Below the pieces are notes generated by a model. The model was not told the origin of the DNA. It saw only the letters and a program-made list of their open reading frames with translations, and made no database searches. Positions 33,008-59,317 of a DNA stretch of 64,000 bases are shown here, piece by piece. The DNA is from Isoetes taiwanensis. Its lineage: Eukaryota > Streptophyta > Lycopodiopsida > Isoetales > Isoetaceae. Made by a program: the position numbers and the translations under genes. Every line of letters begins with the position of its first letter. Position 1 is the stretch's first letter. Location: NCBI GenBank assembly GCA_021234155.1, contig JAJEKV010000083.1, positions 2,268,608 to 2,332,607 on the forward strand. The letters run 5' to 3'.

Positions 33008-33219
33008 TGTGACGTTCCAAGGGAATATACGCCATAAATACGTATATTCCTGGACTCGTCACCATACAAGTCTACCTAGGTAGCCTTGTATGCCTCGAAT
33101 AAGTGGCAAGGGGTGCACATCTAAGTTAATTGTTAACTTAGATAACCTTAGAATAAGCCCATTTCCACATGGCCTTATCATATTGGGCAACCGCCACGGC
33201 TTTTATCTTTAGTGGTCTT
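33008..33219 (+). repeat. Outer element 5' LTR, first part
   Basis: Nearly identical to the first 210 bp of the 3' LTR at 57687-57895. The match ends where the inner element begins. Confidence 0.9.
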
Positions 33220-34759
33220 TGTGGACGTTCGGCCCATTAAGACGGTCGGGGCGGTCCTTTGACTTTGATATCGCCGTCTCGCCACGCCGTACACGCCACC
33301 GACCGAGCGGACGCCAACGATAAAGTAGTAGCCCTAGGGGCAACTTGCTAGGAGTGTTCATATATTATTAATGTGCACATGTGCACATTAATGTGGGCAC
33401 ACCTTTCCATGTTGGCATATTTTGCCACCTAGCCATTAAAGGCAAGTGGGGCCTTTCCAATTATCCCACATGCCAAAATGGGTAATTGGAAACCCTAGCC
33501 TAAACCCCATGTCTATTTAGGGTAGGAAAACCCTAGCTTGCTAGTTTTTCGTCCTTAGGGTTTTAGAGCTCGATTTGGCTGCCCCAAGAGCCAAAACCGC
33601 CTCGAGGCACGCCTGTTTAATTGCGCCATCGGTTCCCCAATTCGATCAGCCCAAAAGAGGGATGGTTGAACTCAGTCGGGAGGAGCCACTCAAGGATCAG
33701 GTATTTGGTCAATTTAATAGCTTAAACCGTCTTCTAGTCATAGAATCGGTAGGTTTAGACTATTAAATTGCCCATAAACTATCTAGATCTTAGATCTCGG
33801 ACACTAACTAAAGAACCTAACTCTATGATTAGATCTAGTTCTTTAGTTCTTACGTGATGTATTTGGATGATGTATCTCTGTAGAACTCCTTGTATTGGGA
33901 AGGGGGTAGAGGCCCTAAAGCTTGTAGTTGATGCTCCTAGAGTAGCCCTCTAGCACATCGTAGATTCGCCTGTGGTACAAGAACCACACCGGTTGTGGGT
34001 GAAAGGACGGGCCGAGAAGGAGGTTCATGTTCTGACTCTTGAACGATCCCTCTGGTGTGTAAGGCCTACCAGGGATCATTGTGACTAGGCCTAATGGCTT
34101 ACCACTGAGTGCGGGTAAGGCATGGGCTCGACACCCGTGAAGTGGTGTACACTTTCCAGTGGGTTCATCCCGAATCTGAGGCGGTGGCCCTCTAGTCACC
34201 TTGAGTCGGCATGTAGATCTCTGGAGGGAGTGATCCCTACCTGCCCCATCGGGACTGGGATGATGACCCCAGGAATAGCCCTTCTGGCTATGCACCCGGC
34301 GGGCTACAGTCAGGTCCCGACACTTTTCAGCCTACTCTGCAAAGTGTGCACAGGAGGGGCGGATGGAGTGGACAACCCTATGCCATGTTCTTATGCCAAC
34401 CAACTCCATTGCCATGAATTGCATGCGCAATGAACTCACGAGACCCAAGCCGTCCGGTCCTCCACCGAGTCTGAGCCTTAGGTAGGATTCCCTATGTGGT
34501 GCTGATCATTGTCTATGCAGATGTTGATATACCACCCCTCTGGGTGGATGGAGGATGTTGAATGGTACTGACATGTATGTTTACGCCGCAGCCTAGGTAG
34601 GCCCCGAGGGAGGTAGAATGACACCTTCACTCTTCCCACTGGGACTCGTTACGGGTGCAGTGATATGTGGAGGGCCCTGTATCGGCATGGAGCTGGTATG
34701 GGGGATGAACTCCTGTTGGTATACGGTGAGTGCACCGTATGCGAGTAGGGGACGTCACA
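33220..34759 (+). repeat. Inner element 5' LTR
   Basis: About 1.54 kb, TGTGGACGTTC ... GGGGACGTCACA. Collinear with 44802-46353, with many small differences at CTG/CAG triplets. Short ORFs within it are not genes. Confidence 0.9.
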
Positions 34760-34760
34760 G

Positions 34761-34772
34761 TGGTATCAGAGC
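34761..34772 (+). promoter_or_regulatory. Primer-binding site, inner element
   Basis: TGGTATCAGAGC, one base after the LTR, is the standard initiator tRNA-Met primer site of plant LTR elements. Confidence 0.9.
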
Positions 34773-34963
34773 AATGTTCTTGGAGACCAAGAGCAAAGCA
34801 CTGGCCATGCTCCCAGTAGTACTAACTTGATAGGATCCTCAAGCCTCGAAAAGTGGGAAATTTTTTTCTCATTTTTGTAGTTATGCTAAGCTAGTAACAA
34901 TTAAGCGAATTGGAATTTGATAAGACTAAAAAGAATAAGCCCAAAATTTTCCAAGTGAGGTGG

Positions 34964-35217
34964 TCTCACAGCTACCGCCAGGTCCAGAACTAAATTTTAG
35001 TTTTGAAGCGAGGCGCAAGCTGTGAGACATCGAGCCAAGATCACCAAAACATGATGAATTTGAGAAAAATAATGTGGTAAGGCTAATTCTAAGGTAGGAA
35101 TTAGTTAGAATAGCATGTTTTAATTACCTAAAAACCCTAGAAATGTATGAGATCTCACAGCTCGCGCCTGGTCGCAAAACTAAACATTAGTATTGGAACG
35201 AGGCGCAAGCTGTGAGA
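34964..35217. repeat. Hairpin pair upstream of inner H3-like gene
   Basis: Two 64-65 bp inverted repeats, 34964-35027 and 35153-35217, each TCTCACAG...CTGTGAGA with inner arms around GCGCC(T) / AGGCGC and AAACTAA / TTAGTTTT. Start-to-start spacing is 189 bp. Confidence 0.85.
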
Positions 35218-35320
35218 CCAATAGGTAGAAAAAGTCTGAAATAAGTATAAGTTTTAACTAAGTTGGTGCCTTAGCATGTTAAACAGAGCAACTTGAGTTT
35301 TGACCTAAAATTCCCCAAGC

Positions 35321-35348
35321 TATAAATAGATGTAGAACCCCCCTCATT
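35321..35348 (+). promoter_or_regulatory. Internal TATA box and CCTCATT motif before H3-like gene
   Basis: TATAAATAG at 35321 followed by CCTCATT at 35342, about 100 bp before the ATG. The same arrangement precedes ORF-X. Confidence 0.55.
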
Positions 35349-35430
35349 TTTTCGTCCAAGCCCTAGAAATCCGCTCTTCCCAACTTAGGCGATCTTTCGG
35401 CGCTTTTATCCGATTGACGATCCGTAAAGC

Positions 35431-36691
35431 ATGGCCCGAACCAAACAGACCAAGTATAATGAAGCGTCCGCCCAGCGAAACCACCAGCGCCACTGAGACG
35501 GAGATCATTCGGAAGATGCTTCGTGAGAGGCTCGCGAGAGGGGGTCGTTCGCCTTCGGACGAGGAGCAAGACACGTCCGATCTGATTGATGTCTTCAACC
35601 AGCAGGCGGAGCAGGACGAGGCCACATCACCGAACTCCATGGACGAGGAGACGAGGGAGGTGTATGAAGAAATAGAGCGGGAGATCCGGCAGCAGGAACA
35701 AGCAGAAGACCATTCGGAGTACACCTACGAGATCCTCGGCGAGGGATGAGCAAGTGATGTGTCGGAGCCGCCAGAGGTAGCAGACCTTTAGAAGGTTCAT
35801 AATAGAAAGCACGAAAGCCGCAGTAAGAGAAAGGAAGACAAAAAGAGGAAAAGGGAGGAAGAGGAACAAAAGGCAGCAGAAGAGAAGAAGAAGGCGAAAG
35901 GGAAGTTCGTGGCTGGCATAAGGAGGACGAAGGATTGCCCGCCAAGGAAGAGGCCGAACCCCAAGATCGTCATCAAGGAGCGGCAACCCGACGAACCCCC
36001 AAACCCCTCCGACGACTCTTCTGATGAAGATTTTAACCCTAATGCTGCAGGTGGAAGCTCTTCTAAGCACCCGGGCGACGAACAGGTAGCACCTGACCAG
36101 CCATCACCTGAGCAACCCCAGCAAGATCAAGTACAGAAGCCCCCTGAGTACCCGGCATGGGATAGGAAGAAACAGCCACGACCTGCCCGTGAAGCTTACG
36201 TCACCGACAGAGTAAAGATTTACGAAAGGAAGATGAGGGAGCATGAGGCCTACATGAAGAAATGGGAAGCCTACAGCAAGTACTATGAAGAAAACAGGGT
36301 CAGGTTCATCGAGGGAGGGCGACCAACGAAGCAGCAAACCTTAAAGCCGCCACCACCGAAGCCCAAGGTTCCCAAGCCACCACCAAAGAAGAAAGCTGAT
36401 AGAAAGGAGGTGGAGAGAAGAGCGCTAAGAGAGATTAGACACTTCCAGCGCAGCTACGGTCTTCTAATCCCCCGTGCCCCCTTCGCTCGGCTGGTGCGAG
36501 AAGTAATGCAGGACTACAGGACAGACTTTAGAATCACGGATGAGGCGCTGCTGGCAATGCAAGAGGCGGCTGAGGCAAAGATAGTGCAACATTTTGAAGA
36601 CTCAACAGCTTGCACTGTTCACGCCAAACGAGTGACCCTCATGAGACAAGACATGCTTCTTGCGAGTCACATCAAGGGAGAACGCCCTTAG
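35431..36691 (+). CDS. Histone H3-like protein of inner element (about 420 codons)
   Basis: The N-terminus reads MARTKQTKYNE, matching the canonical H3 tail for seven residues. That frame stops at 35493; a shift near 35460 continues into TETEIIRKMLRERLARGG and an acidic stretch, then two in-frame stops (35747, about 35790), a Lys/Glu-rich coiled segment, Pro-rich and basic linkers, and finally an H3 histone fold from 36422 to the stop at 36689. The fold reads ALREIRHFQRS (alpha-N), PFARLVREVMQDYRTD (alpha-1, loop 1), ALLAMQEAAEAKIVQHFED (alpha-2), VHAKRVTLM (loop 2) and IKGERP at the end. Cys/His of the H3-H3 interface (CTVHAKR) are kept. Loop 1 has canonical H3 length, unlike CENH3. Canonical H3 is 136 residues, so tail and fold are separated by roughly 280 extra. 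Probable role: nuclear or nucleosome-associated protein of the element; inference only. Confidence 0.88.
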
Positions 36692-36836
36692 AACTTTTTG
36701 TAAATAATTGAAAATTTTGTAATATAGTACAATTTTGGGTAGTTTAACCGACTGAACTTGATTAATTGGGATAAGTTAGCAGGTTTTAGCCTTTATTTCA
36801 TCAAAATAGGACATTTGCAGACCGAGAGACATGATG

Positions 36837-37101
36837 TCTCACAGCTCGCGCCTGGTCGCAAAACTAAAAGTTAGTTTTGAAGCGAGGCGCAAGCTGTGAG
36901 ACCTCGCCCAAACTTGACCAAAGCAGCTCCAAATCGGCCAAATAAGGGGTCAATTCTGCCTGATTTGATGAGCCCATCACCCTTACACCATTAGTTTACC
37001 CAAATTAGACACCTTTTGATCGAAATGAGACTGATGTCTCACAGCTCGCGCCTGGTCAAAGAACTAAAAGTTAGTTTTGAAGCGAGGCGCAAGCTGTGAG
37101 A
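36837..37101. repeat. Hairpin pair between inner H3-like gene and ORF-X
   Basis: 36837-36901 and 37037-37101, each TCTCACAGCTCGCGCCTGGT ... AGGCGCAAGCTGTGAGA with a perfect ACTAA/TTAGT centre. They start 200 bp apart and are nearly identical to the upstream pair. Confidence 0.9.
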
Positions 37102-37293
37102 CCTCTTACCATTTCTTCACCAGGACTTGTCAAAATCACCTTCAACCTATTGCATAGCATCTTTTAGGTAATCTAGCCTTGTTCAAGCATCTCATCTAGT
37201 CCTCAAACTCCCATTTTGACCTCAGATAGCCTAGAATTACCCAATCCTAGGAAATTTTCAAGTCATCCAAAAATTAGGGTTTTCCCCTTTTTC

Positions 37294-37312
37294 TATAAAT
37301 AGACCCCTCATT
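37294..37312 (+). promoter_or_regulatory. Internal TATA box and CCTCATT motif before ORF-X (inner)
   Basis: TATAAATAG at 37294 and CCTCATT at 37306, about 120 bp before the ORF-X ATG. Confidence 0.6.
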
Positions 37313-37415: not shown

Positions 37416-38943
37416 ATGGCAACTTCTGATTTCCACAGATGGTACAGCGCCCGGCCGCTCCATCTTTCTTGAGGCGGCGTCGACCAAATCTTCGGATCTT
37501 GGGGAAGGAGGTAGATGTCAAGCAACCTTGCACGCGACCCGGCTTATAGTAGAGTCTTGATCGAGTTCCAAGCTAGGGTAGAACCAGCGCTAGTGCAACT
37601 TCCCCTTGTGTAGGCTATTTTGTTCCTAGACAGGTCCCTGCCGAGGGCGGCATTAGGCGATGTCGAACATCGCCAAATACCCTCACAAACAAAGGGCACC
37701 GCACACCTGAGCCAATGGTCCTAGCTGTCAGCGGGACCAAGTACTTCTCTTTCAACACTTGCCACGGCAATCTTTCTCACCCACCGTGCGAGAACGCAGG
37801 TGGGGAAACCTCCATTCCCCATGGGCGTGGACCCATTGGCCATAGCAGCCCAGAACAACGGCTCCTCACCACGGTATGAACAGGAGCATGAAGGGAAGGA
37901 AGAAGACTTCGGATGAACAGGAATCGAAGAAGAGGAAGACTATGTCGAGCTCGACCAGGAAGAGCGGCGACAAAGCAGAGCAGGAGTGGCAAGACTTGAA
38001 AGAAGCCGCCGGACTCTCGAGTCGGCGCCACCCCTCGGGTTAGGCATCACAAGCCTAGCTCCCATTATTGTCGAAGGTGAGGAGTTTACGCTCTAAGCGA
38101 CATTCAAAACCTCCGGAATGCGGGGAAAGGAGCAGGCCGAAGAGTTGATGCACCAACTCGAAGAAGCGGACTTGGGCGACTTCATCGTCCCAGGAGAATC
38201 CGACTTCCCCCTCCAAGTAAGGGAAGCCGACACTTACACGGGAGAGTTTACCTCAGGCATCCAAGCCCTGACAACATCAGGCGGGTTATGGAGGCGGACA
38301 AAGGCGGAGAACAAGCTACGGCCGGAGGAAGAGTTCCTTGCTCTTGAGGAGCAGATGGGGATCCGCTATGCGACCTCAAACATCCTAACGGGCAAGCTCG
38401 ATCCAAAGCACCTCCGGGGGAGAGGACAGCACCGACCTCGGGAGGGCCCGGCCTTGATCGAGACTACGGGGGAGCTCACCCGCGGTGGAGGTTGATGACT
38501 TGAGCGAACCAGCTGGATACCGAGTGGTAGGGACCGATCTGCGCAGCGACCGGTCACTACGGTATTACACGCCACTTGCTGATGGATGGAAGAATAAGCG
38601 GTAATTCACCATTAAAGTTCACCCGAGGCGAAGAAGAAGGTATCGATGCTGATTGCACTCGGGATTCGCCGCATCGCGGTTGCCCTTAATACCCGGTATG
38701 CAATCTTGGTGAGGAGAGCAGTAGCTTTCGGCGTCTTCGACTTAGCCATACCTTCTGGTGGCGGGCAAGATTGGGCGTGTGGCGGCTTGTACCTCCACCG
38801 AGAATAAAAGACTTGGCAAAGAGCATTCTGGGGTGGATCTCCGGCCAATGTCCTTAGGAACTTGGGCCATTCGATTGGGAACAACCCAAGTGAAAAAGTT
38901 CTGGAGGATAATCCATCTTAACGTGGCGCCGAGGAATGATTAG
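37416..38943 (+). pseudogene. ORF-X of inner element, frame-broken, function unknown
   Basis: Starts MATSDFHRWYSARPLH, alignable with MAPSNFERWYNAANHIH in the outer element. Later shared blocks are GITSLAPIIVEGEEFTL near 38041 and a C-terminal region from LRYYTPLADGW (38560) through a hydrophobic segment to about 38940. The segment 38118-38495 is open (MRGKEQAEELMHQLEEADLG). Several frameshifts and stops fall between. No domain is recognised; it is neither gag nor envelope-like, and no transmembrane segment is evident. Two diverged copies with the same start and order support a real gene. Confidence 0.6.
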
Positions 38944-39131: not shown

Positions 39132-40503
39132 GTGGAACGACAACGCCGGGAACATATGGAAGAACAGAGTCCCCCAGCCACGCCCGCAAGGAACCTGCTT
39201 GAGGAATTTGGGAGCCATCACCCCGAAGAGGAAATATCTCGGATGAGGACTACCGAACAGATAAAGGCCTTTGTCCGCCGCCAAGCAGGAGGAGCGGGGT
39301 CGATTGGCAACGCCGCTTGCCTCAAGCATCGGTTCGAAAAACAGGAAGAGACAAGAAGAGAAGCAAGAGAAGGAGGTCCCTCGTTCCGGAATCCTCCGAC
39401 TCAAGTTGATTCAGACTCGTTCGAGGAAGAGGAAGAGCGTGCCCAGACCTGGACAGATGCAAGGCAGAGAACCCGCAGATGCAAGGCGTAGGGACGCCAT
39501 ATATGGACGACAAAGGGACACAAGAGCCTCGACTACCGAAGAAGGTAGATTACAGACCGGCAATGTATGGAAGGCCCGGAATCGGAACGATTCGGGGAGA
39601 ACAGTCGGGATTGGAAGAGAGAGGCATGGCTCGGATCTAAATGAGTGAGTACGGCAATGCTTATGGCATGAAGGATAAGGACAAAGGTAGAGTGGCAACA
39701 GCCAACTTGAAAGGAGCCGCACGGATTTGGTGGAAGGGTTATGCAAAGGCACATGGCTTAAGCAGGGATGCTTGTAAGTTCAGAAAGTTTGCTAAAGCCT
39801 TCAAGCGCCATTACGTCCCAAGGGAGCACAAGTCCAACATGATGCAAAGCTTTTCTGAAGTTGCAAAGAAGGCAACAAGTCACCCAGAAATATACCGAGG
39901 AATTCATGAGGTCGAGGTCAGTATGTGCCAAAGTTAGGCGAAGCATGCAAAAGAGAAAGCTACGTTGAAGGCCTAAATGAGGAGATCCGCAAGCTTGTAA
40001 GGGCAATAAACCCTAGAACAGTATCAGAAGCGGAGTCCAAGGCAATAAGCTTGCAAGGAACGGGACCTCAGAATAGCGGGCAGAGGCAGCAGTATTACCA
40101 GGACAAAGGCAAGGCAGCAGGCAGTTTTAGCCCGAGGACAGCCAGCCCAGGACCAGCTAGAGCCCCATATAGTGGCAATCAGGGGAAGCAGCAGGAGAAG
40201 AAGCAGGTGTCCTTCAAAGACAAGCAGGAAGGGTCAAACTACTCCAAAGCAGTGCGTTCCTTTTTGCAGGCCATGCCCAAGGAAAAGAGACAGGAGTGCA
40301 TAGAAAAGCAGCTTTGCTTCAGGTGCTTCCAGCCAGGCCATAGGACAGCGAACTGCCCATACGTCATGAGTGCAGCGCTAGCAGAGTTGGGAGATTGGGA
40401 CACTCTGTCTGACGACGACGGCGAGGAAGCCCGCGACTACATTCAGGGTGAGTGTCATATCTTTGCGCTTAATAGATCTGAGCAAGCAGAGAGAGCGGTA
40501 TAA
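39132..40503 (+). CDS. Gag of inner element, frameshifted
   Basis: Structural protein forming the particle. An N-terminal charged part (39132-39491) is followed, after shifts, by a Retrotrans_gag-type block (39641-39937: EYGNAYGMKDKDKGRVATAN, GAARIWWKGY) and from 39925 by ESYVEGLNEEIRKLVRAINP. The zinc knuckle CFRCFQPGHRTANCP (CX2CX4HX4C) is at about 40317-40360. A TGTATGCAG sequence at 39106-39115 before the gag frame could be a splice acceptor allowing expression past the accessory genes. Frameshifts near 39490 and 39930 may be sequence errors. Confidence 0.8.
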
Positions 40504-41784
40504 AGTAATTTCCACGATGGGAAAGGCCAAGGCCAAGTCATTTATAGTCCCTGATAGATTCGAAGTAGCCATAACTTTGCATCCCCCGGAATGGTTCGGG
40601 ATGTTGAAGTTGAAACCATTAAAGTCAAAGCTAAGGCCCGTTGTCTTAGCAAGTGGAGCAATAAAGGCGACGGCGCAGGTAAAAAGAATCAACTTTGACA
40701 TCGACTTGCGAGGGGATTAAGATCCGGATGGGGGCAGAGGTAATGGGCATCGGCAAATACGACTTGATAATAGGTATGGAGTACCTTGGACCACCAGGGG
40801 CCATTTTGATTGTGGAAGCGGAAGGTGACCTTCCCAAAGACCGACGGCAAGATCATTGAGATAACAAGGTAAAGAAGTTGTTCCCATCATGCAGTGTATG
40901 TCTTCTAAACGGCTGTTCAAGTGCATCAAGAGTGAGCAAGTGGCATACATCTTCAAGCTCGAGATTAGTGAGCCGGAATTGGAAGGAAGCAAAAGGAAGA
41001 CAAGATGCTCGGTAAGTTGCGAAGCAAATAGCTAAGTTGATCCACGGAGTTCCACGATCTCTTTCGGATGAGATCAAGCGGCTCCCTCCTTATAGGGGAG
41101 TCGAAAAGCGAGATAGCTTTTCGAACCAGGAACAAAGCCAACAAGCAAGGCTCCATATAGAATGACAACGCAAGAGTTGTTGGAGTGAAGAAAGCGATTA
41201 GCGGAGCTGCTTTCGACCTAGGTTTCATTAGACCTAGTGTCTCGCCGTTTGGAGCGCCCATTCTTTTTGTCAAGAAGAAGGATGGATCTTTGAGGATGTG
41301 CATAGACTATAGACAGTTGAATAAGCACACCATTAAGAACAAGTATGCGCTTCCAAGATCAGACGACTTGATGGATCAGCTTCAAGGAGCAAAGATCTTC
41401 TCCAAAATCGACTTAAGGTCAGGATATCATCAAATCCGGATAAAGGAAGAAGATATCCATAAAACCGCCTTCAGGACGCGGTATGGGCATTATGAGTTCA
41501 CGGTAATGCCTTTTGGCTTATCAAATGCCCCCGCAACGTTCATGAGGCTCATGAACGATATCTTCAGGGAGTTCCTGGACACCTTTGTGATTGTTTTCTT
41601 TGATGACATTTTGGTGTATAGCAGATCCCTTGAAGAGCACGTGCAACACTTGAGAAGAGTGCTAGAGAAGTTGAAGAGGCACCAGTTGTACGCCAAGTTG
41701 TCGAAGTGCCGCCGCAAAGAGAAGGTGGAATACCTTGGTCATGTGATCTCGGCGAAGGCATCTCGGCGGACCCGCCAAGATTGA
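40448..41784 (+). CDS. Protease and reverse transcriptase of inner element, frameshifted
   Basis: The protease active site is visible across two small shifts near 40545-40580 as LIDS followed by SSHNFASP, the D-S-G variant of plant chromoviruses. INFDIDLRG and later MEYL follow. RT is open at 41185-41784: [52 protein letters not shown] and the catalytic box [10 protein letters not shown] frameshift near 41760-41830 separates RT from RNase H; the counterpart in the outer element is readable there, and the break lies at altered CTG/CAG sites. Confidence 0.85.
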
Positions 41785-41788
41785 AGCG

Positions 41789-43942
41789 GTGATTCGGTGG
41801 CGTCGCCGAAGAATGTGCACGAGGTCCCAAGTTTTCTCGGGTCTAGCGGTGGTACTACGTGGGAAGTTCGTGAAGAACTTTGCTAAGATAGCGGCCCCGT
41901 TAACAGATTTGACGAGGGCAGAGAAGGTGAAAGATTGGGCAGAGCATTGGCACAAGAAAGCCCAAAAGGGATTTGAATTGTTGAAAGAAGCTTTGACGAC
42001 AGCCCCTGTCTTGACCCTGCCGGACCCGGAGAAAGATAAGCTTGTAGCAACAGATGCGAGTAAGATAGCTACAGGTGCAGTGCTTATGCAAGAAGAGCGT
42101 GTGGTAGCGTATGATTCCAGGAAGATGAACGACGCCGAGACGCGCTACCCAACGCATGATCAGGAATTGCTTGCGGTTGTCAGGGCATTAAGAATATGGA
42201 GGCACTATCTCTTGGGAAGGAAGTTCCAATTGGATACCGACCATCAGAGCCTCCAATATGTATTCACGCAACCACACCTTAATCTGAGGCAGCGGAGATG
42301 GATGGAGTTCCTCGAAGAATATGACTTTGATATAGTCTACAAGCCGGGGAAGCTCAATGTGGTAGCAGATGCGCTTTCAAGGCATCCCCTGACAACTAGA
42401 GTGCATTGCAATGCAATTTCGACGCTCTCCAGCAACTTTGGTAAGAAGATTGAAGAGTCCTTGCCAATGGATGTAGATTTCAGAGAAGTATGGGCAAGCC
42501 TCTCCAGGGAGGCTAGAACAGACAAAGAGCGGGAAGCCTTCAAGCATTTTAAGAAGGAGGGCAACCTATTATATCATAAGGATAAGTTGTGCGTACCAGA
42601 GTCATCAGGGGTAAGGAAATTGATCCTCCACGACACGCACAACAGCCCAATAGCTGGCCATGCGGGATTCATGAAAACATATTTCAAAGTACGCAGCAGC
42701 TATTATTGGCCAGGAATGAAGAAGCAGGTAGCTCGCTACATCAAGGAATGTCAGTTATGCCAGCAGACGAAAGCGGAGCAACTTCGAATCCCAGGGGCAT
42801 TAGAGCCATTAGCGGTGCCAAACGCTAAGTGGGAGGTAATCAGCATGGATTTCATCACAGGACTCCCAAGAACGGTAAGAGGGAAGGATGCCTTGATGGT
42901 GGTAGTCGACAAGTTGTCGAAGATGGCACATTTCGTGCCTTGCAAGACCACAGATACAGCTATGGATACGGCAAAGCTCTTCACCAAAGAGATCTTCAGG
43001 CTTCATGGCATGCCAAGGGAGATTATATCCGACAGGGATCCGAAGTTCATGAGTGCCTTTTGGCAAGACCTCTTTGCGACGATTCAGACAAAGCTATCCA
43101 TGAGCACGGCGTATCATCCTCAGACGGATGGCCAGACGGAGCGGACCAACAGAATCTTAGAAGACATGCTACGGAACTATGTCTGGAATAAGCAAAGTAT
43201 GTGGGAAGAATTTATTCACTTGGTGGAGTTTGCATACAATAGCACCAAGCAGGAATCGTCCCAAATGTCGCCATTTATGATCAATTATGGCTATCAGTGC
43301 CTAACTCCAGACACTTGGCACAACCCCGTGTCAAAAGTAGAAGTTTCGCAGCAGATGTTGGCCGACATGCAGCAGCTCGTGGAAGAAGTTCGAGGCTATC
43401 TGCTAGCAGCAAGAAGTCGTCAGAAGAGCATCGCCGACAAGCATCGAACAGTCAGAGAGTTCAAAGTGGGAGATGATGTATGGCTCAAGATCAAGGTGAA
43501 GCAGGCGAAGCTCAGGATTGGCAATTGCAAGAAGCTTGCTCCAAGGTGGGCTGGACCCTTCAGAATAATCAAGAGAGTAGGTAACCAATCCTACAAGTTG
43601 GATTTGCCAGCACACCTAAAGATTCATAAGGTCTTCCACGTGAGTTTGTTGAAAAAGCATACTCCAAATCCAGACGAAGTCTTGGACACGCCGACGTTGT
43701 TGGAAATGACAGAGGAGCAGCTGGAAATAGTTCCAGAAATGATTCTTGATAAAGCTTTCAAGAAGACAAGGAGGTCGGAGTTCCTCCAATATCTGGTCAA
43801 GTGGAAGCACTTGCCAGTGGAAGACGCGACGTGGGTACTTAAGAAGGATTTAGTAAAGCAGTACCCACAGTTTATGGAGCAATGGGACGGCAAGGTCATC
43901 TCCGAAGAAATCGACTCAGGCATGTCGATTTGTGTAGGTTAA
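41789..43942 (+). CDS. RNase H-integrase-chromodomain of inner element, intact 717-codon ORF
   Basis: RNase H begins [17 protein letters not shown] with its first Asp, continues to RYPTHDQELLAVV, and ends [12 protein letters not shown]. The integrase zinc-binding region is [14 protein letters not shown] ... CQLCQQ. Core catalytic residues are in SMDFITGLP (D), IISDRDPKF (D) and DGQTERTNR (E). The C-terminal part ends [11 protein letters not shown], then a chromodomain at 43740-43890: [20 protein letters not shown] followed by WVLKKDL. The aromatic Y/W/W positions expected of a methyl-lysine cage are present. This is the best-preserved gene in the window. Chromodomains in chromoviruses direct integration to heterochromatin by binding H3 tails. 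Confidence 0.95.
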   Translation: MIRWRRRRMCTRSQVFSGLAVVLRGKFVKNFAKIAAPLTDLTRAEKVKDWAEHWHKKAQKGFELLKEALTTAPVLTLPDPEKDKLVATDASKIATGAVLMQEERVVAYDSRKMNDAETRYPTHDQELLAVVRALRIWRHYLLGRKFQLDTDHQSLQYVFTQPHLNLRQRRWMEFLEEYDFDIVYKPGKLNVVADALSRHPLTTRVHCNAISTLSSNFGKKIEESLPMDVDFREVWASLSREARTDKEREAFKHFKKEGNLLYHKDKLCVPESSGVRKLILHDTHNSPIAGHAGFMKTYFKVRSSYYWPGMKKQVARYIKECQLCQQTKAEQLRIPGALEPLAVPNAKWEVISMDFITGLPRTVRGKDALMVVVDKLSKMAHFVPCKTTDTAMDTAKLFTKEIFRLHGMPREIISDRDPKFMSAFWQDLFATIQTKLSMSTAYHPQTDGQTERTNRILEDMLRNYVWNKQSMWEEFIHLVEFAYNSTKQESSQMSPFMINYGYQCLTPDTWHNPVSKVEVSQQMLADMQQLVEEVRGYLLAARSRQKSIADKHRTVREFKVGDDVWLKIKVKQAKLRIGNCKKLAPRWAGPFRIIKRVGNQSYKLDLPAHLKIHKVFHVSLLKKHTPNPDEVLDTPTLLEMTEEQLEIVPEMILDKAFKKTRRSEFLQYLVKWKHLPVEDATWVLKKDLVKQYPQFMEQWDGKVISEEIDSGMSICVG

Positions 43943-44801: not shown

Positions 44802-46353
44802 TGTGGCGTTCGACACGATTATCACGGTCCGGGGGGTATCTATATCTTTGCCGAATCGCAGCATTACACGCCACTCCCGACCGTGTACGCCAGCGGATAG
44901 CGTGTAAGTAGCCCTAGGGGCAACTTGCTAGGAGTGTTCATATATTATTAATGTGCACATGTGCACATTAATGTGGGCACACCTTTCCATGTTGGCATAT
45001 TTTGCCACCTAGCCATTAAAGGCAAGTGGGGCCTTTCCAATTATCCCACATGCCAAAATGGGTAATTGGAAACCCTAGCCTAAACCCCATGTCTATTTAG
45101 GGTAGGAAAACCCTAGCTTGCTAGTTTTTAGATCCTTAGGGTTTTAGAGCTCGGTTTGGCTGCCCCAAGAGCCAAAACCGCCTCCCGAGCGCCTTAAGCG
45201 AATTGCGCCATCGGTTCCCACAATTCGATCAGCCCGCCGGGATGGTTGAACTTCAGTCGGGGAGGAGCCACTCAAGGATCAGGTATTTGGTCAATTTAAT
45301 AGCTTAAACCGTCTTCTAGTCATAGAATCAGTAGGTTTAGACTATTAAATTGCCCATAGCAGCTATCTAGATCTTAGATCTCGGACACTAACTAAAGAAC
45401 CTAACTCTATGATTAGATCTAGTTCTTTAGTTCTTCTGTGATGTATTTGGATGATGTATCTCTGTAAACTCCTTGTATTGGGAAGGGGGGTAGAGGCCCT
45501 AAAGCTTGTAGTTGATGCTCCTAGAGTAGCCTCTCTAGCACACTGTAGATTCGGCCTGTGTACAAGAACCACACCTGGTTGTGGGTGAAGGGGCCAGACT
45601 GGCTGAGAAGGAGGTTCATGTTCTGACTCTTGAACGATCCCTCTGGTGTGTAAGGCCTACCGGGGATCATTGTGACTAGGCCTAATGGCTTACCACTGAG
45701 TGCGGGTAAGGCATGGGCTCGACACCCGTGAAGTGGTGTACACTTTCCAGTGGGTTCGGTCGAATCACGGGAGGCGGTGGCCCTCTAGTCACCTTGAGTC
45801 GGCATGTAGATCTCGGAGGGGAGTGATCCCTACCGCCCCATCGGGGCTGGGATGATGACCCGAGGGAATAGCCCCTTCGGCTATGCACCCGGGGCTCTGG
45901 TCAGTCCCGACACTTTTCAGCCTACCGCAAAGTGTGCACAGGAGGGGCGGATGGAGTGGACAACCCTATGCCATGTTCTTATGCCAACCAACTCCATTGC
46001 CATGAATTCTGTCTGCAATGAACTCTGGAGACCCAAGCCGTCAGTCACTCCCTGGAGTCTGAGCCTTGGGTAGGATTCCCTATGTGGTGCTGATCATTGT
46101 CTATGCAGATGTTGATATACCACCCCTCTGGGTGGATGGAGGATTCTGTTGGTACTGACATGTATGTTTATGCTTCCGCAGCTAGGTAGGCCCTGAGGGA
46201 GACAGGGTAGAATGACACCTTCACTCTTCCCACTGGGACTCGTTACGGGTGCAGTGATATGTGGAGGGCCCTGTATCGGCATGGAGCTGGTATGGGGGAT
46301 GAACTCCTGTTGGTATACGGTGAGTGCACCGTATGCGAGTAGGGGACGTCACA
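44802..46353 (+). repeat. Inner element 3' LTR
   Basis: About 1.55 kb, TGTGGCGTTC ... GGGGACGTCACA, collinear with 33220-34759. It abuts the second part of the outer LTR. Confidence 0.9.
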
Positions 46354-47798
46354 GGTGCCACGTGGCATCCCACGTGGACCCACACCTATATAAGCCCTAA
46401 CCCTAACCCTAGACCCGTTTTCCTGACCTAGCACCTGAGCTCTCATCCACGTACCCAAAATCCCGTTTCGAGCATCGTTCGTCATAGCCTAGCCTGGAGC
46501 AGCAGCCCCTGGAAGGTGTGTATGATCGTTGAGGGAGCCAGTCTTCGAACCTCGTCAAGGAGCATGGAGGCGCCCGGGGGATGGGAGGAAGCGCTTCGGG
46601 AGGAGGTAGGTTGAGTAGGGTTCATGGTAGTTCACCTGGAAGTTAGCATTCCAGGTGGGTTAGTATTTTGTGTCTAGAGTAGAGCCACCCTAGATCCTTT
46701 GTTGAACATCTTGAACCCTAACCAAGGAACCATAACTGATAGTTAGGTATATATGTTAGGTTAAGATGTTCATATGATATTGATATTGATCATGATGTGA
46801 TGTATGTGATATTGGTTGATCATGTGCTCCTCTTGTATGGGGAAGGGGGGTAGAGACCTAGAGCCATATGTAGTATGCTCCTAGTGTAGATCCCTTAGTT
46901 CCTATTAGTTATGCTTTGTGCATAGGAACCCACTTAGGGCTATGGAAGCTATGATGAGACTCAGCCCCACACAACGGGGCTAGGGGCAAGATGGAGGGTG
47001 GATCCCTGCCGAGTGGGGGCTTCGGGGGATCCCACAGTGGGCTAGGCTTATGGTCGGTCACTTCGTGTGGGCCGAGCATGGGTCCGACACCTCCTGGGGC
47101 AATGGTGTCGCCCCTGCCCCTCAAGAGCTGCAAGTGTCAGCTTGGCTCTTGTTTTGGGGGTTCGGTCGGGGTGCTGAATCGGTGTGTCGCCACGCGATTC
47201 TCTAGCGCCCATGGAGCCTCTAGACCCAGGAAGGGGAGATGCAACCCTTCCTACCTCGTCCGGACCGGGGAGATGCAACCTGGAGTAGTCTCGATGGGTG
47301 ATCCCATGGGATTGCGTGATCCAGGAAGGTTAGAGTCATGCCTGACCTGATCTAGCCCATCTGCAAAGTATGCACAGGAGGGGCGGATGGAGTGGTCAAC
47401 CCTAGCCATTATCTTATGCCAGCCCCGCCATTGTTATGACTCGGTCTGCTCTATCTTGAGACCTATCCAGTCAGTCGACCTCCTTATGTGTCGGAGCCAC
47501 GGGTAGGAGCTCTCCTGTTTTATGGTATGTGATTATGTTCTTTGCACTTGTGGATATGGGATGGACTACCCTTGAGGGGTAGTATTTGTATTATTGATGC
47601 TAGTTCTCCGACATGTTTATCGCCCATTTGTTATAGGAGCCCATAGGGAAGGGCGCCAAGACACCCGTGTCCCCTCCCCGCCCGCTAGGGTCACCTTAGA
47701 GCGGGGGTAGAGCGAAGGGCTTTGTCGGGTGATGAGCGGATGGGGGATTTCGCCGAAAGTATCGGCCGGCGCCCGTATGTTTAGCAGGGAGCGTCACA
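46354..47798 (+). repeat. Outer element 5' LTR, second part
   Basis: Collinear with about 57895-59312 of the 3' LTR; ends GAGCGTCACA. Contains the LTR TATA box at 46388 (CTATATAAG), followed directly by CCCTAACCCTAACCCTAG. Confidence 0.9.
46387..46413 (+). promoter_or_regulatory. LTR TATA box with telomere-like repeats
   Basis: TATATAAG then three CCCTAA-type units. The 3' LTR copy is at about 57927-57955. Telobox-like motifs near TATA boxes are common in plant housekeeping promoters. Confidence 0.65.
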
Positions 47799-47799
47799 A

Positions 47800-47811
47800 T
47801 GGTATCAGAGC
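47800..47811 (+). promoter_or_regulatory. Primer-binding site, outer element
   Basis: TGGTATCAGAGC one base after the LTR, initiator tRNA-Met type. Confidence 0.9.
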
Positions 47812-48277: not shown

Positions 48278-48301
48278 TTTTTAAATATCTGACACCTCAT
48301 T
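48278..48301 (+). promoter_or_regulatory. Possible promoter before outer H3-like gene
   Basis: A weak TATA-like TTTTTAAATA at 48278 followed by CCTCATT at 48295, about 75 bp before the ATG at 48375. Confidence 0.4.
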
Positions 48302-48374: not shown

Positions 48375-49490
48375 ATGGCACGCACTAAACAAACAGCCAG
48401 GAAGTATAACGAGTTTCCCCCCTCTCAATGGGCATAAGTTTTCGCAGCAGAATGCATGTCAAGAAGGTTCCTGAGCACCTTCGACCGAAGCCAGGAGATG
48501 AGGAGTCTCACGCCAGCAGCAGCAGCAGCCACGACTCCTTCCATGATGCTGAGGAGGATGCACCTAGCCCAAGCAGCAGCTCTTCATCGGCAGGCACCCA
48601 GAGAACCGGCGAGTCCCGCCACTTTGGGCCCTCGACGGACACCGAGGTAGAAGAGCGGGTGAAGAAGCAGTGTGGGCGGGCAACAAAGAAGCAGCACCAA
48701 ACTCAAGAGGCGGGCCCTTCAGCACCAAAGAAGAAGGGCAAGGAAAAAGTTGCAGAGTGGCCGGAGGAGAAGGCTGCTAGGAAGAAGAGGGGAGCTGAAG
48801 CGCAGAGCTCGTGGCCGGAAAGAAGGACCAAGAGAAGAAAGCCGGACCTCGCCGGTCTGTCCGTTATTGAAGAGCCTCGTGAAGAGGAGGAGGAGGCATG
48901 CATGAGGGAGAAGACGAGGAGGAGGAGGAGCAGCAGGGCCCCTGACGCGAGACCACCTTACCCTAAGTGGCCGGAGCTACCAAAGGTGGTCAAGAAGGTG
49001 GGAGAAGCGAATTCCGCCCGCCCGGGATCGTGAATTCATGCGCCAAGATGAAGGTGTACAAAAGAGTACCTCCGTCATTTGGGACGAGGTACAACGACCG
49101 GTACGCCAACGAGGTCTGAGGGTCGCGGAGGGCGGCAGGCGGGAAGAAAAATCAGCCGAAGCCACCCCCACCTAGGACCGAAAAACCAAAGGGTTCACCA
49201 CCGGGCGAGCAGGTACGCCCCGGTGTTTAGGGAGATCAAGCACTTCCAGATGTGCACAAATCTCCCTCATAAGGAAGGCCCGCGCGAGCGCCTCCTTCGA
49301 AGATCATGCAGCATTTCGGACCGATTATAGGGTTACCCCTCTAATGACCCGGGCCCTGCAAGAAGCCGCCGAAGCAGAGCTGGTGCAGCTCTTCGAGGAA
49401 GGGAATCTCTGCGCCATCCATGCTAAGAGAGTCACCCTTATGCCAAAGGATATTCACTTAGCACGGAGGATTCGCAGGGAGAGGCCCTAG
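48375..49490 (+). CDS. Histone H3-like protein of outer element (about 372 codons)
   Basis: Starts [20 protein letters not shown]; the first ten residues are those of the canonical histone H3 tail, including K4 and K9. This frame stops at 48433, and a shift near 48425 leads into a long open frame (to 49033) rich in Ser, Glu, Lys and Arg with nuclear-localisation-like KKKGKEK and RRTKRRK. After further shifts an H3 fold closes the gene: [17 protein letters not shown] near 49196-49249 (compare the HR-x-RPG-x-x-ALREI of H3), alpha-2 as [20 protein letters not shown], then [20 protein letters not shown] and RRERP before the stop at 49488. Alpha-1 is scrambled by small indels at 49250-49340. Between the inner and outer copies the shared peptides differ mostly by synonymous codons. 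Confidence 0.88.
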
Positions 49491-49728
49491 CCCTCAAATT
49501 TTGTAAATTTTGTAGAAAAGTTAAAATTTTCATGTAACTGTGTTTTCTTATTAATATAAAAGTTGTTTTCCTCTGTAATTAGAAAAATGTGGATGCTTGA
49601 AATGTAGGGAAATTAAACCCAATTGGAGTAGAATTCTTTATAGCAAGCTTAGAAATACCCTAGAAATCATGACTACAACGAAATTCTGGCAAAACAAATC
49701 ATCAAAAAAGCAAAAAAACGAGGCAACT

Positions 49729-49995
49729 GGGTGAGACCGCGCCAATGGCCTCTGCGTTCGCGACGCGGGCGCGTTTCGCGCGGATTCACCCGACTGCCCC
49801 AAAAAACATGCTTTTAGATGTCACTTTTGCTCAAAATAAGTTGCTAGTTAGGTTAGAATCGGCCCAATTAGCCATGTTAGCATCTTCAAACTCTCAAATT
49901 TGACCAAAATTGGCTCCAAAATCGGCCAACCGGGTGAGACCGCGCCAAACGCGTCTGCGTTCGCGACGCGGAGGCCTTTCGCGCGGATTCACCCG
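49729..49995. repeat. Hairpin pair between outer H3-like gene and ORF-X
   Basis: 49729-49791 and 49931-49995: GGGTGAGACCGCGC ... GCGCGGATTCACCC with an inner GCGTC/GACGC-type stem. Start spacing is 202 bp. Sequence is unrelated to the inner element's hairpins, but size, spacing and position match. Confidence 0.85.
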
Positions 49996-50176
49996 GGTCA
50001 GCCCATTTTTGACCCAAATTAGCCAAATTCAGCCAAACAAACTGCCATTTAGTGTTTTTTGCTTCATTTTGCTTAGAATTGCACTTCATGGTAGCTCATT
50101 TGGGCACTCATAGCCATAGAACCAAGGCCTTTCTATGTAGGTACCTTTTGCACGAATCCCGAGGTCAACCATAGTC

Positions 50177-50294: not shown

Positions 50295-51808
50295 ATGGCG
50301 CCCAGCAACTTTGAGAGATGGTACAATGCTGCAAACCATATCCATCAGCTCCCTGCTGACCAAGCCTTCTCTGTGTTTGACCACTTGTTTGATCTTCATG
50401 CAACTCTGTCTAGAACACCATATTACACAGATATCATGTGCCAATACGACCAACAGGTCCTGCCTTGGGAAGTTAGACTACCTCCTAGGGGGGGGAATTG
50501 GGTTTCTCTGGAGACACTCACCCAAGCCTTAGGTCGAGAGATGGGAGGATCCAAAGGCAAGAAGCAGTTATGGGATAGGACTAGGACCATGCCAGATTAC
50601 ATGACCTGCAGACACAATAAGCATAGGTACCTTTCATCTCAGACAGCCCTTGCCCTCTTCATGCACTATAAGTCAATCAACAAAGTAGGGGAACCTTCTG
50701 TTCAGCCCTTAGACTTAGCTCCACTCGATACCCGTAGGGCTCAGGACCAGATCCTCAATATAGATTCCTCCGCATATGAATACCATGGCACGACGTCGGG
50801 GGCACCAGTCTTGCAGATTGAAGAAGACTACGAGCAGTTAGGGGAGCAAAACCCAGAATGGGAGAGCAGGGAGGCAACAAGAATGTAGAGGTACATGTCA
50901 AGGCACGACGACGACATCAGAAGAGCCACCGAGCCACCGGTCGGCATCACAGCTCTGTCGCCGATAGTCATCGACGGAGAGGAGTACATTCTAGCAAATG
51001 ACATCCTCAACTTGTCATACTTCGAATCGACGAGCTTCTAGGCATGATAGCGCATGGGAAAAGCACGGACCTCATCGACTACTCATACCAGGAGATTCCA
51101 AGGGAGCTGGCGGAGAGACACTCTTATGCTGGGGAGACAATGTCTGACATAGCAGCCTACCAGCAGATAAGGGAGATCTATCGACAACAGGAACCCGTCA
51201 TTTCAGAGGAGGAGTTCCAGCAGATACAGAGCACACTGTACAAACCAGGGAGGGGCCCAAGCTCAAGCCGGGCAGTTCGAGCGAGGAGCATGAGGGAAGG
51301 GTCCAGCAGCATCAACTTGGACAATGCAACCAGCATGTGGAGAGACCATGAAGACCTTATGGCAGTAGATGCCTACGGTGGAGCGGCTCAAAGGAAGGGC
51401 ACGGGTTCGCGAGGCACGGGTAAAGGTACGGCACTTCGCTACTACCTTCCATCCCTCAGCCAAGGGCAAATGGTAGTCTTCCACAAGGAGTTCAGTCCAA
51501 GGGGGGAAGAATCAGTGGCACTTCTCATAGCACTCTCGGGCTTCGGGCAGCACTCGAAGATATACGCCCATGCAGATCACGTCATCCTTTTCAAGAGGTC
51601 CGTAGCGCTCCATTGCCTTGACTTCGCTAGGGGCCACCTCAGGGACGCATCACTTTCAGTAGTAGCAGCAACTGCACCAGAACTCCCGGAACCGGAAATG
51701 GCTCGAGCACTCGAGGGAGGATCGACAAGGAACATCCTGCGCAACCTCGGCAAAGGCCTCCGATTTAGGGATGTGAAGAATTTCTTTAAGCTCTCAGGAG
51801 GCCATTGA
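50295..51808 (+). CDS. ORF-X of outer element, about 505 codons, function unknown
   Basis: Begins MAPSNFERWYNAANHIHQLP. Open to a TAG at 50886, continues in the same frame with GITALSPIVIDGEEYILAND, shifts near 51025, then is open from 51044 to 51808. The middle is Glu/Gln-rich (EEEFQQIQSTLY), then low-complexity Ser/Arg; the C-terminal region is more globular (LRYYLPSLSQGQMVVFHKEF, then a hydrophobic stretch) and ends NFFKLSGGH. No signal peptide, membrane segment or known motif. It lies where other long gypsy families carry extra ORFs, but shows no resemblance to gag or envelope. The counterpart in the inner element confirms it is inherited. Confidence 0.7.
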
Positions 51809-53319: not shown

Positions 53320-54789
53320 TTGGGATTCGCCCCCGAAGCCCGGATGAAAGGCGGCGACCAGCATGAGGCCCAGGACTTCATAGATGGTGAGTGCCACATC
53401 TGTGCAAATATTGAGTCGGGTGACATAGAAAATCAGTCAACAGTAATTGCGGCTGATGGAATCATAGATAGCAACCCATATGTAGTCCTCATAGACACAT
53501 GTAGCTCTCACAATTTCGCCTCTCCTAGGCTGGCTGCCCTAATGAAGAACAAGGTATTGAAGTCTAAGCCAAGGCCAGTTGCTATGGCAAATGGTGCCAT
53601 TCGGCACACTAAGGGGAGAAGGATTACATTCGACATAGACCTTAGTGGAAGTAAGTGGCCCATGGGGGCAGAGGTCATGGAGATTGGAAGGTATGACCTT
53701 ATAGTAGGAATGGAGTTCCTAAAGCCAGCGAAAGCCATGATTGACTGCGATCGCAATGAAGTCGCCATGACAGCACCGGACGGCACCAAATTCATAGTGA
53801 GAGGTAAGAAAGCTTCTTCTATGCAGTGTATTTCTTTCAAGCAGCTAAGGAAAAGTATAGAAAGAAATAAGGTGGATTACATTTTGAGATTAGAGGCAAT
53901 TGAGCCCAGTAAACAGGATGGAAACGACCAAAAGGGGAAGCAGTTGCCCAAGCCAGTAGCAAGGCTTATTTCGGAATTCAAGGATGTATTTCCGGATGAA
54001 ATCCGGCAGCTACCACCTTATAGGGGTGTGGAGTGTGAGATCACATTAGCACCAGATACTAAGCCTACCAGCAAGGCACCATACAGGATGAGCACCCCAG
54101 AGTTGACAGAGCTCAAGAAACAGCTTCAGGAATTGCTTGAGCTTGGTTTTATTAGAGCAAGTGTGTCTCCTTTTGGAGCACCCATACTCTTCGTGAAGAA
54201 GAAAGATGGCAGCTTAAGAATGTGCATAGACTATCGCCAGCTCAACAAGCAGACGATAAAGAATAAGTATGCATTGCCAAGGGCAGATGATTTGATGGAC
54301 CAGCTCCAAGGAGCAAAGGTATTCTCTAAAATTGACTTAAGGTCAGGATACCACCAAATAAGGATAAAGGAAGAAGATATCCATAAGACCGCCTTTAGAA
54401 CGCGGTATGGTCATTTTGAGTTTACGGTAATGCCCTTTGGATTGTCGAATGCTCCAGCAACTTTATCGCGCCTAATGAGCGGCGTCTTCAGGGATTTTCT
54501 AGATGAGTTTGTCATTGTCTTCTTCGACGACATTCTAGTCTACAGCAAGTCCATTGAAGATCATAGTCAGCATTTGAGAAGGGTGTTAGAAAAGTTGAGG
54601 CGGCATCGTTTGTATGGAAAGCTCTCCAAATGCCACTTTGCTACGGAAAGAGTGGAGTACTTGGGCCATGTCATATCGGCGGAAGGGATCTCCACCGACC
54701 CCGCAAAGATCGAAGCAGTAGTAGATTGGCCAGCTCCAAAGAATGTGGCGGAAGTAAGAAGCTTTCTAGGTGCAGCGAGGTTATTCTGA
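53320..54789 (+). CDS. Protease-reverse transcriptase of outer element, 489-codon ORF
   Basis: Protease active site [15 protein letters not shown] (D-T-C in place of D-S/T-G), with the usual ITFDIDLSG and DLIVGMEFL downstream. RT follows in the same frame: [57 protein letters not shown] and the catalytic [13 protein letters not shown] at 54787 (LGAARLF stop) interrupts the frame before RNase H; the next bases continue the expected KFVKDLAK, so one changed codon separates the parts. The Gly-to-Cys change in the protease may reduce activity or be an error. Confidence 0.9.
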
Positions 54790-57686: not shown

Positions 57687-59312
57687 TGTGACGTTCCAAG
57701 GGAATATACGCCATAAATACGTATATTCCTGGACTCGTCACCATACAAGTCTACCTAGGTAGCCTTGTATGCCTCGAATAAGTGGCAAGGGGTGCACATC
57801 TAAGTTAATTGTTAACTTAGATAACCTTAGGATAAGCCCATTTCCACATGGCCTTATCCTATTGGGCAACCGCCACACGGCCTTATCTTAGTGGTGCCAC
57901 GCGTGGCATCCCCGTGGACCCACACCTATATAAGCCCTAACCTAACCCTAGACCCTTTTTCCGACCTAGCACTGAGCTCTCATCCACGCACCCGAAATCC
58001 CGTTTGAGCATCGTTCGTCATAGCCTAGCACTGGGCGGCAACCCCCGGAAGGTGTGTATGATCGTTGAGGGAGCCGGTCTTGAACCTCGCCAAGGAGCAT
58101 GGAGGCGCCGGGGGATGGGAGGAAGCTCCGGAGGAGGTAGGTTGAGTAGGGTTCATGGTAGTTCACCGGAAGTTAGCATTCGGGTGGGTTAGTATTTTGT
58201 GTCTAGAGTAGAGCCACCCTAGATCCTTTGTTGAACATCTTGAACCCTAACCAAGGAACCATAACTGATAGTTAGGTATATATGTTAGGTTAAGATGTTC
58301 ATATGATATTGATATTGATCATGATGTGATGTATGTGATATTGGTTGATCATGTGCTCCTCTTGTATGGGGAAGGGGGTAGAGACCTAGAGCCATATGTA
58401 GTATGCTCCTAGTGTAGATCCCTTAGTTCCTATTAGTTAGGCTTTGTGCATAGGAACCCATAGGGCTATGGAAGCTATGATGTGACTCAGCACCACACAA
58501 CGGGGCTAGGGGCAAGATGGAGGGTGGATCCCCGCCGAGTGGGGGCTTGGGGGGATCCCACGGTGGGCTAGGCTTATGGTGGGGTCACTTCGCGTGTGGG
58601 CCGAGCATGGGTCCCACACCTCACGGGGGCAATGGTGTCGCCCCGCCCCTCAAGAGCTGCAAGTGTCGGTTTGGCTCTTGTTTTGGGGGTTCGGTCAGTG
58701 CAATCGTGTGTCACCACGATTCTCTAGCCGCCCATGGAGCCTCTAGACCCCGGGAAGGGAGATGCAACCCTTCCTACCTCATCGGACCGAGGGAGATGCA
58801 GCACGGAGTAGTCTCGATGGGTGATCCCATGGGATTGCGTATCAGGAAGGTTAGAGTCATGCCACGGCTGATCTAGCCCATGCAAAGTATGCGGGGAGGG
58901 GCGGATGGAGTGGTCAACCCTAGCCATTATCTTATGCCAGCCCCCGCCATTGTTATGACTTCGGTGCGCTCTATCTTGAGACCTATCGGTCGGTCGACCT
59001 CCTTATGTGTGAACCTGGGTAGGAGCTCTCTGTTTTATGGTATGTGATTATGTTCTTTGCACTTGTGGATATGGGATGGACTACCCTTGGGGGTAGTATT
59101 TGTATTATTGATGCTAGTTTCGACATGTTTATCGCCCATTTGTTATAGGAGCCCATAGGGGAAGGGCGCCAAGACACCTTCAGTGTCCCCTCCCCGCTAG
59201 GGTCACCAAGGGGTAGGCGAAAGGCCTTTGTCGCGGTGATGATGAGCCGGATGGGGGATTTCTGCCAGGTATATCTGGCCGGCGATATGTATGTTTAGCG
59301 GGGGCGTCCTGA
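57687..59312 (+). repeat. Outer element 3' LTR
   Basis: Starts TGTGACGTTCC like 33008; ends GGCGTCCTGA (degraded from GCGTCACA), followed by the GAATG target duplication. Confidence 0.9.
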
Positions 59313-59317
59313 GAATG

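Follow-up and report, generated by a model that had tools for sequence, protein, structure and literature searches.

A histone H3-like gene between the primer binding site and gag of Ty3/gypsy retrotransposons in Isoetes taiwanensis

In chromatin silencing, retroelements are for the most part passive targets; plant LTR elements are known to carry extra ORFs, and G9a and influenza NS1 contain short mimics of the H3 tail that display an ARTK- or ARK-like peptide. Capture of an H3-like gene by a mobile element is known from fungi, where hAT DNA transposons carry H3L genes, with 26 copies in Pyrenophora and 784 copies, inactivated by RIP, in Pseudocercospora fijiensis (PMC3538342, PMC6710886). The Pyrenophora H3L has tail insertions, is represented by ESTs and adjoins an ORF of unknown function, and its copies are near-identical, for which the authors suggest drift (PMC3538342, PMC6710886). 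In addition, bracoviruses encode an H4 with an N-terminal extension that joins host nucleosomes (PMC5423620, PMC9145170), thus providing a precedent for an invader histone joining host chromatin.

Here we describe an H3-like gene (hereafter retro-H3) of the quillwort I. taiwanensis. Like the fungal H3L, it was captured by a mobile element and amplified to tens to hundreds of copies; unlike it, it resides not in a fungal DNA transposon but in a plant LTR retrotransposon, with reverse transcriptase and integrase in place of a hAT transposase and terminal inverted repeats. Its types, of which there are at least three, are deeply diverged, its tail and fold are under selection, and its start sites number 2,727. 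With viral histones, e.g., bracovirus H4 and the single H3 of DNA viruses, it has in common that an invader encodes a core histone close to that of its host, although those are encoded by DNA viruses and bracovirus H4 retains the tail lysines. In contrast to the mimics of G9a and NS1, that of retro-H3 occupies the actual N-terminus of a protein with an H3 fold. We found no report of a histone among the extra ORFs of plant LTR elements in the open-access literature (titles and abstract starts), a count of the terms 'retrotransposon', 'retrovir' and 'RNA virus' in the main text of the viral histone review (PMC9145170) gave 0 for each, and so did a count of 'histone' in that of the I. taiwanensis (PMC8566536) and I. 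sinensis (PMC10541799) genome papers. The first-pass annotation, made from the letters of the locus, knew of no description of histone capture by an LTR retrotransposon; this stands for retrotransposons in the open-access literature searched, but since fungal hAT transposons already carry H3 (PMC3538342, PMC6710886), what is new relative to that literature is confined to the retrotransposon as carrier and to the gene's retention under selection, transposon H3 capture as such being already known. Overall, we assign a probability of about 0.97 to the reading that chromovirus-type Ty3/gypsy elements carry a separate H3-like gene between primer binding site and gag, with a conserved TATA-like box ahead of it, that diversified together with the elements and whose tail and fold are under purifying selection.

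Two nested elements, each with a retro-H3 gene

Self-comparison and LTR borders within the window (the whole 64-kb stretch of DNA analysed) gave two elements with paired LTRs, an outer Ty3/gypsy element (33008-59312) and an inner Ty3/gypsy chromovirus (33220-46353), both delimited by LTR comparison and, like their features listed below, on the plus strand. The inner element, already named as such in the first-pass annotation, is real, and its insertion split the outer 5' LTR into a proximal piece (33008..33219, 97% to the sequence from 57687 onward) and a distal piece (46354..47798), which shows 94 differences over 1402 sites to the outer 3' LTR (57687..59312). GAATG at 59313-59317, after the outer 3' LTR, equals GAATG at 33003-33007, as expected of a target site duplication of the outer element; in the same check the flanks of the inner element had GGT alone in common. 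The inner 5' LTR (33220..34759) pairs with the inner 3' LTR (44802..46353), with 82 differences over 1424 aligned sites in the well-aligned part and 139 over 1527 overall. Directly 3' of the 5' LTR of both elements lies the primer binding site, TGGTATCAGAGC (34761..34772 in the inner, 47800..47811 in the outer element), which we take to be of the tRNA-Met type, and a polypurine tract precedes both 3' LTRs.

Further downstream, the inner element contains a gag region (39641..40503, from Pfam and comparison with the outer element, the zinc knuckle being weak and below the Pfam cut-off), a reverse transcriptase (41185..41784; PF00078, 1.8e-40) and RNase H, integrase and chromodomain (41789..43942; PF17917, 2e-34; PF17921, 6e-20; PF00665, 1e-9; PF00385, 1.5e-10), and the outer element protease and reverse transcriptase (53320..54789; PF08284, 5e-8; PF00078, 9e-39). 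The domain order, with reverse transcriptase, RNase H, integrase and chromodomain taken from the inner and protease and reverse transcriptase from the outer element, is that of chromoviruses, and LTRs, primer binding site, gag, protease, reverse transcriptase, RNase H and integrase with chromodomain are all common to plant Ty3/gypsy chromoviruses. The best 120 of 3659 matches of the pol search assign the element to the plant Ty3 elements, at 38-50% identity, and include no host match. In two blocks of 98 codons the inner and outer pol differ with a pN of 0.04 and a pS of 0.69 and 0.92, and this near-identity of the proteins, with silent sites near saturation, indicates that the two elements belong to old, separate families. 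Neither Rfam at gathering thresholds nor ARAGORN (bacterial code, for tRNAs) gave a match anywhere in the window. Elsewhere in the window, a further Ty3-like pol frame on the minus strand (22313-24298), judged by sequence alone, is unrelated to retro-H3, and 7463-8305 and 10626-11360 hold plant gene remains or exons (glycosyl hydrolase 17, 2-oxoglutarate dioxygenase N-terminal domain).

The inner retro-H3 gene (type 1; 35431..36691), delimited by tail pattern, Pfam and frame reading, is sited between primer binding site and gag, as had been proposed for it as a separate unit, and consists of the codons M-A-R-T-K-Q-T (35431..35451), a long linker and a complete H3 fold from aN to the C-terminus (36416..36688; Pfam, PDB, AlphaFold, Foldseek). 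The H3 fold that the first-pass annotation had seen at the end of the ORF was confirmed, as ORF 35909-36691 matched the Pfam Histone family PF00125 at 3.1e-28 (98.9 bits, cut-off 26.4), the profile match being significant over 36422-36688, and PDB H3 chains at 7e-28. Moreover, its last 91 residues align without gaps to residues 45-135 of host H3, so loop 1 has the length of canonical H3, again as claimed. The proposed MARTKQT start holds in part: ATG-ARTKQT is present at 35431, but in a different frame from the remainder, and TGA at 35747 and TAG at 35789 cut the frame leading to the fold, which leaves this copy broken. For the open part, AlphaFold predicted aN, a1, a2 and a3 and a long helix ahead of the fold (mean pLDDT 66; residue blocks 161-260, 64-89), and the top PDB matches of this model in Foldseek were nucleosomal H3 chains.

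The outer retro-H3 gene (type 2; 48375..49490), likewise after the primer binding site and before gag and frame-broken, has a 10-residue tail start (48375-48404, tail pattern) and the C-terminal half of an H3 fold (49314-49487, to 49490; Pfam 6.7e-18). Over 58 shared codons, inner and outer gene differ with a pN of 0.29 and a pS of 1.02 (bootstrap ratio 0.18-0.42). The H3 tail through K36 is absent: types 1 and 2 keep residues 1-9 only, and the five loci read of a third type, described below, keep none of it. As the tail past residue 9 is lost, retro-H3 is an H3-derived variant rather than a canonical H3.

A TATAAATA...CCTCATT box, found by pattern, precedes both the inner H3 gene (35321..35348) and a further inner frame, ORF2 (37294..37312), and a TTTAAATA...CCTCATT box, read from the sequence and found as the same box in related loci, precedes the outer H3 gene (48280..48301); the window contains three matches of the box pattern versus 0.12 expected. 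Palindromic hairpins lie at 34958..35031 (z -6.3), 35148..35221 (z -7.2), 36832..36905 (z -9.4) and 37032..37105 (z -6.9) in the inner element, and two hairpins downstream of the H3 gene at 49715..49800 (z -4.4) and 49920..50002 (z -4.8) in the outer one. These palindromes of about 70 bp thus occur on both sides of the H3 gene; their sequences are unlike between the elements and their position after the gene is alike. ORF2 was delimited by comparing the two elements, with a broken inner region of approximate borders (37416..38935, short-piece matches to outer ORF2) and an outer region in pieces (50295..51808). The pieces gave no convincing Pfam match, and a single-sequence AlphaFold model of one of them was meaningless (pLDDT 34).

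A diversified family under selection

The I. taiwanensis assembly (1,658,258,908 bases, 1110 contigs) was searched with both folds. The best 150 of 9,069 first-look candidates for the inner fold matched at 86-100% identity and the best 150 of 7,518 for the outer fold at 90-100%, and because 150 of about 9,000 candidates were scored, the retro-H3 copy numbers are lower bounds. A second copy with the same arrangement, whose lack would have spoken against the first-pass claim, is given by the outer element and by the loci with the full gene order described below. A canonical H3 query returned 15 matches at 97-99%, which are the host H3 genes with full tail, and at least 135 further matches at 76-87%. 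Five loci read from the latter set define type 3, which has a near-canonical fold without ARTKQT; one of them with a frame open to the start (L056) has a different N-terminal region, and one traced upstream has an LTR end and primer binding site ahead of the gene. The genome hence carries at least three retro-H3 types, with 48-52 (type 1), 58-61 (type 2) and 79-81 (type 3) of 91 residues identical to host H3. In types 1 and 2, a long charged linker joins the H3 N-terminus ARTKQT, which usually continues to ARTKQTARK, to a complete H3 fold. Two loci, L060 and L058, are subtypes with different linkers, and the family therefore extends beyond types 1-3.

From the tail side, a DNA pattern for MARTKQT had 2,727 exact genome-wide sites versus 0 for the reversed-pattern control, a count that includes host H3 (at least 15 sites) and a pattern that also admits Ser (AGY) at residue 2, of which none was seen by eye among 100 sites listed; a longer tail-start pattern had 1,051 sites and its reversed control 0. 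A chance origin of the tail starts is rejected by this difference to the control, and a host H3 misassembled into an element by the many loci and diverged types. Exact MARTKQT lies upstream of the fold in 25 of 30 fold-selected loci, followed by ARK in 20 and by YRK in five, and all three tail sites read (of the 2,727) are followed by fold-like sequence, which in one case is a weak match (5e-4). The 30-locus set, used for tail and box counts, leaves out L001 (the window), L003, L011 and L012 (duplicates of longer loci) as well as L019 and L020 (short frames). Within it, 28 loci have a TATA-like box with CCTCATT after it at 89-113 nt upstream of the tail codons, and 18 have a similar TATA-like box up to 1.4 kb downstream of the H3 stop. 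With these boxes and the hairpins around the H3 gene, retro-H3 and ORF2 resemble independent transcription units.

Among 16 ten-kilobase loci, picked for long frames, an LTR end with primer binding site was found in 13, ORF2 in 15, gag in 11 and all of these in 10, with the order LTR-PBS-H3-ORF2-gag in 10 of 16. An uninterrupted frame of 364-467 aa from ATG is present in 10 of the 16, one with MARTKRT. Tail and fold share one open frame in 10 of 33 distinct type 1 and 2 loci (window included), all of them among the 16, which means that intact retro-H3 genes exist and that most copies are decayed. Located between retro-H3 and gag, ORF2 is a further accessory gene, common to types 1 and 2; in type 3, a frame with weak similarity to it (about 30% over 61 residues) lies downstream of the H3, and one locus (L052) has ORF2-like frames on either side of its H3, as if recombined.

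Within types 1, 2 and 3, fold pN/pS is 0.10, 0.06 and 0.06 at a pS of 0.47, 0.23 and 0.61, compared with a pN/pS of 0.04 in host H3 (16, 15, 5 and 15 loci, without duplicates), and since loci were taken from the top of fold-similarity lists, these fold pN values are biased downward. Codons 1-33 of the type 2 fold and the tail lay outside the queries that brought in the loci; the former show 0.13, and the MARTKQT codons 0.03 (type 1, 0.08; type 2, 0.02) in 14 distinct 21-nt versions over 28 loci, namely the 30-locus set without L028 and L035, which have no recognisable tail. Codons 2-9 gave 0.14 and codons 11-20 gave 0.74 within types and 1.01 over all, pN in the latter being raised by an ungapped comparison that included some frame-shifted copies. 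In a gapped alignment of the ten uninterrupted copies, picked to contain MART, pN/pS was 0.00 (type 1) and 0.15 (type 2) in the first ten codons, 0.38 and 0.18 in the linker and 0.10 and 0.06 in the fold. Judged by these ratios, selection best preserves the fold and the initial seven to nine H3 residues, and purifying selection is slight or absent just past the tail.

Because silent sites vary while MARTKQT and the fold are fixed, retro-H3 looks like a selected accessory gene and not like dead cargo, and the selection on tail and fold strengthens the accessory-gene reading of the first-pass annotation. A host H3 copy picked up in a single transduction and since then carried without a function, which may be the case in the fungal hAT elements, would account for the fact that both window copies and most fetched copies are broken, yet silent divergence between the types is saturated with tail and fold still recognisable, and within-type pN/pS in tail and fold is as low as 0.02-0.13. 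Contradicted by this selection, such passive carriage was rejected, and we give it scarcely any credence.

Fold residues, origin and possible roles

In a table of 39 retro-H3 rows (36 distinct loci, three of them counted twice), R72, R83, K115, R116, T118, C110, H113, D123, L126 and I130 are invariant and R49 is altered in one row; we take these conserved positions to be DNA contacts and the H3-H3 or Asf1 surface. On the other hand, the PHRYRPGT stretch that precedes aN is missing from types 1 and 2, in which K53 is changed to H, K56 to R or M and the 86-90 chaperone motif is altered (PLMTR in type 2), and type 1 in addition has R63P and K122Q and, in 5 of 17 rows, R129 changed to H. In view of the PHRYRPGT loss and the changes at 53, 56, 63, 86-90, 122 and 129, retro-H3 might form atypical nucleosomes or none at all.

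Going by the majority residue at each position, types 1 and 2 have 12 changes from host H3 in common, and Y54F and A135P are common to all three types, with L055 as an exception that keeps Y54. The phylogeny with host H3 and CENH3 that had been proposed as a check (58 rows, 91 columns, weakly resolved) places each type in its own clade and type 3 with Isoetes H3, and no type groups with plant CENH3. Both one old H3 capture and an early plus a later capture would fit these data. Plant CENH3 was among the best matches of a first protein search (about 56% identity over the fold), in which canonical 136-aa H3 fell outside the length limits, and PRAPFARLVREVMQD is common to type 1 and some CENH3-like proteins (P0016, P0018). 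A captured CENH3-type histone that steers the elements to centromeres is nevertheless highly improbable, and a CENH3 capture was rejected on loop 1, tail and tree: a CENH3 would be expected to show a longer loop 1, a divergent tail and grouping with plant CENH3, whereas retro-H3 has the tail of H3, a loop 1 without the CENH3-type insertion and, in a tree of few columns, types 1 and 2 apart from plant CENH3 and type 3 with Isoetes H3.

As to function, the two roles suggested in the first-pass annotation, engagement of nucleosomes and sequestration of H3-tail readers, are both retained as hypotheses. We tentatively infer, at a little under even odds, that retro-H3 pairs with host H4, enters nucleosomes and lends the chromatin of the element resistance to silencing or an identity of its own. 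Under this scenario the protein would be produced during the element life cycle, its retained fold would pair with host H4, and it would enter nucleosomes, probably on element DNA, where it would take the place of host H3. It would then show K4, and K9 in most copies, and S10 to about K36, where much silencing would be written, would be missing; the benefit to the element might be chromatin that withstands silencing or is told apart from host chromatin as belonging to the element. A private H3 variant of this kind, evolved by a lineage of plant chromoviruses from the first nine residues and the fold, with the remaining tail replaced, and making self-specific chromatin that host silencing leaves unwritten, is possible at somewhat less than an even chance. 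A nucleosome-entering variant is favoured by the many DNA-contact and H3-H3 or Asf1 positions kept, while the broken state of the window copies and of most other copies counts against the mechanism. Moreover, the tail is not essential to every retro-H3, given the five type 3 loci without ARTKQT and the other N-terminal region of L056, and any single simple account is weakened by the fold changes of types 1 and 2 and by the tailless type 3.

The strong selection on the first seven to nine residues, with weak or no selection on the next ones, resembles a displayed peptide on a flexible tether, and the linker evolves faster (0.38 in type 1, 0.18 in type 2). Both would suit a decoy outside nucleosomes, whose free ARTKQT(ARK) end soaks up or redirects K4 and K9 readers and writers that would silence the element and whose fold serves stability or binding of H4 or a chaperone; still, this is unlikely, because a mere tether would not require the conservation seen in the fold, most DNA-contact residues included, because type 3 retains the fold but not the tail, and because the K9 context is altered in type 2 TYRK copies (5 of 30 loci). 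Alternatively, retro-H3 and host H4 might package or escort cDNA in the nucleus or steer integration via retro-H3 nucleosomes, e.g., into other elements, which would agree with the insertion of the inner element in the LTR of a retro-H3 relative, with the chromodomain of its integrase and with the use or encoding of histones by some DNA viruses (PMC9145170). This role in the life cycle we regard as quite unlikely, since one nested insertion is no evidence of targeting and the chromodomain probably does not recognise the retro-H3 tail through methylation: as read from the sequence, the inner chromodomain has I, W and L at HP1 positions Y24, W45 and Y48, similar to plant group II chromodomains, which are without Y24 and usually without Y48 (PMC3350952).

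The reading as an H3 variant within nucleosomes thus suggests that families of LTR retrotransposons use a histone of their own to assemble or camouflage chromatin. Retrotransposons with a selected H3 would show that histones themselves are among the means by which this conflict is fought, and, if this is true, the family would amount to a dissection by nature of H3 into parts that merit retention and parts that do not. With ARTKQT and fold kept and residues 10-36 discarded, it would also be a natural experiment on the roles of the K4 and K9 ends alone. If most of the 2,727 sites are retro-H3, the family would be a larger mobile H3 family than that of P. fijiensis with its 784 copies. In practice, H3 searches in quillworts, and perhaps H3 antibodies, may pick up transposon products.

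Further H3-fold proteins were encountered in the searches. A multi-copy ENA protein family of about 340 aa (P0025, P0032-P0036, P0047, P0093) comprises P0033-type proteins, most of which begin with M(V/A)(R/K)TKQT(E/A)RK and most of which end in a full H3 fold; they are possibly an independent case of the same design. In Isoetes, none of 119 scored matches to P0033 reached its first 145 residues and no full-length match was found, and no relative was retrieved when viral contigs were scanned with the fold and P0033. Two further H3-fold families with long N-terminal regions (P0041, P0048, P0055, P0067 and P0073; P0070 and P0082) come from ENA contigs, and in a single protein (P0060) the H3 fold is followed by a Ulp1-type protease domain (PF02902).
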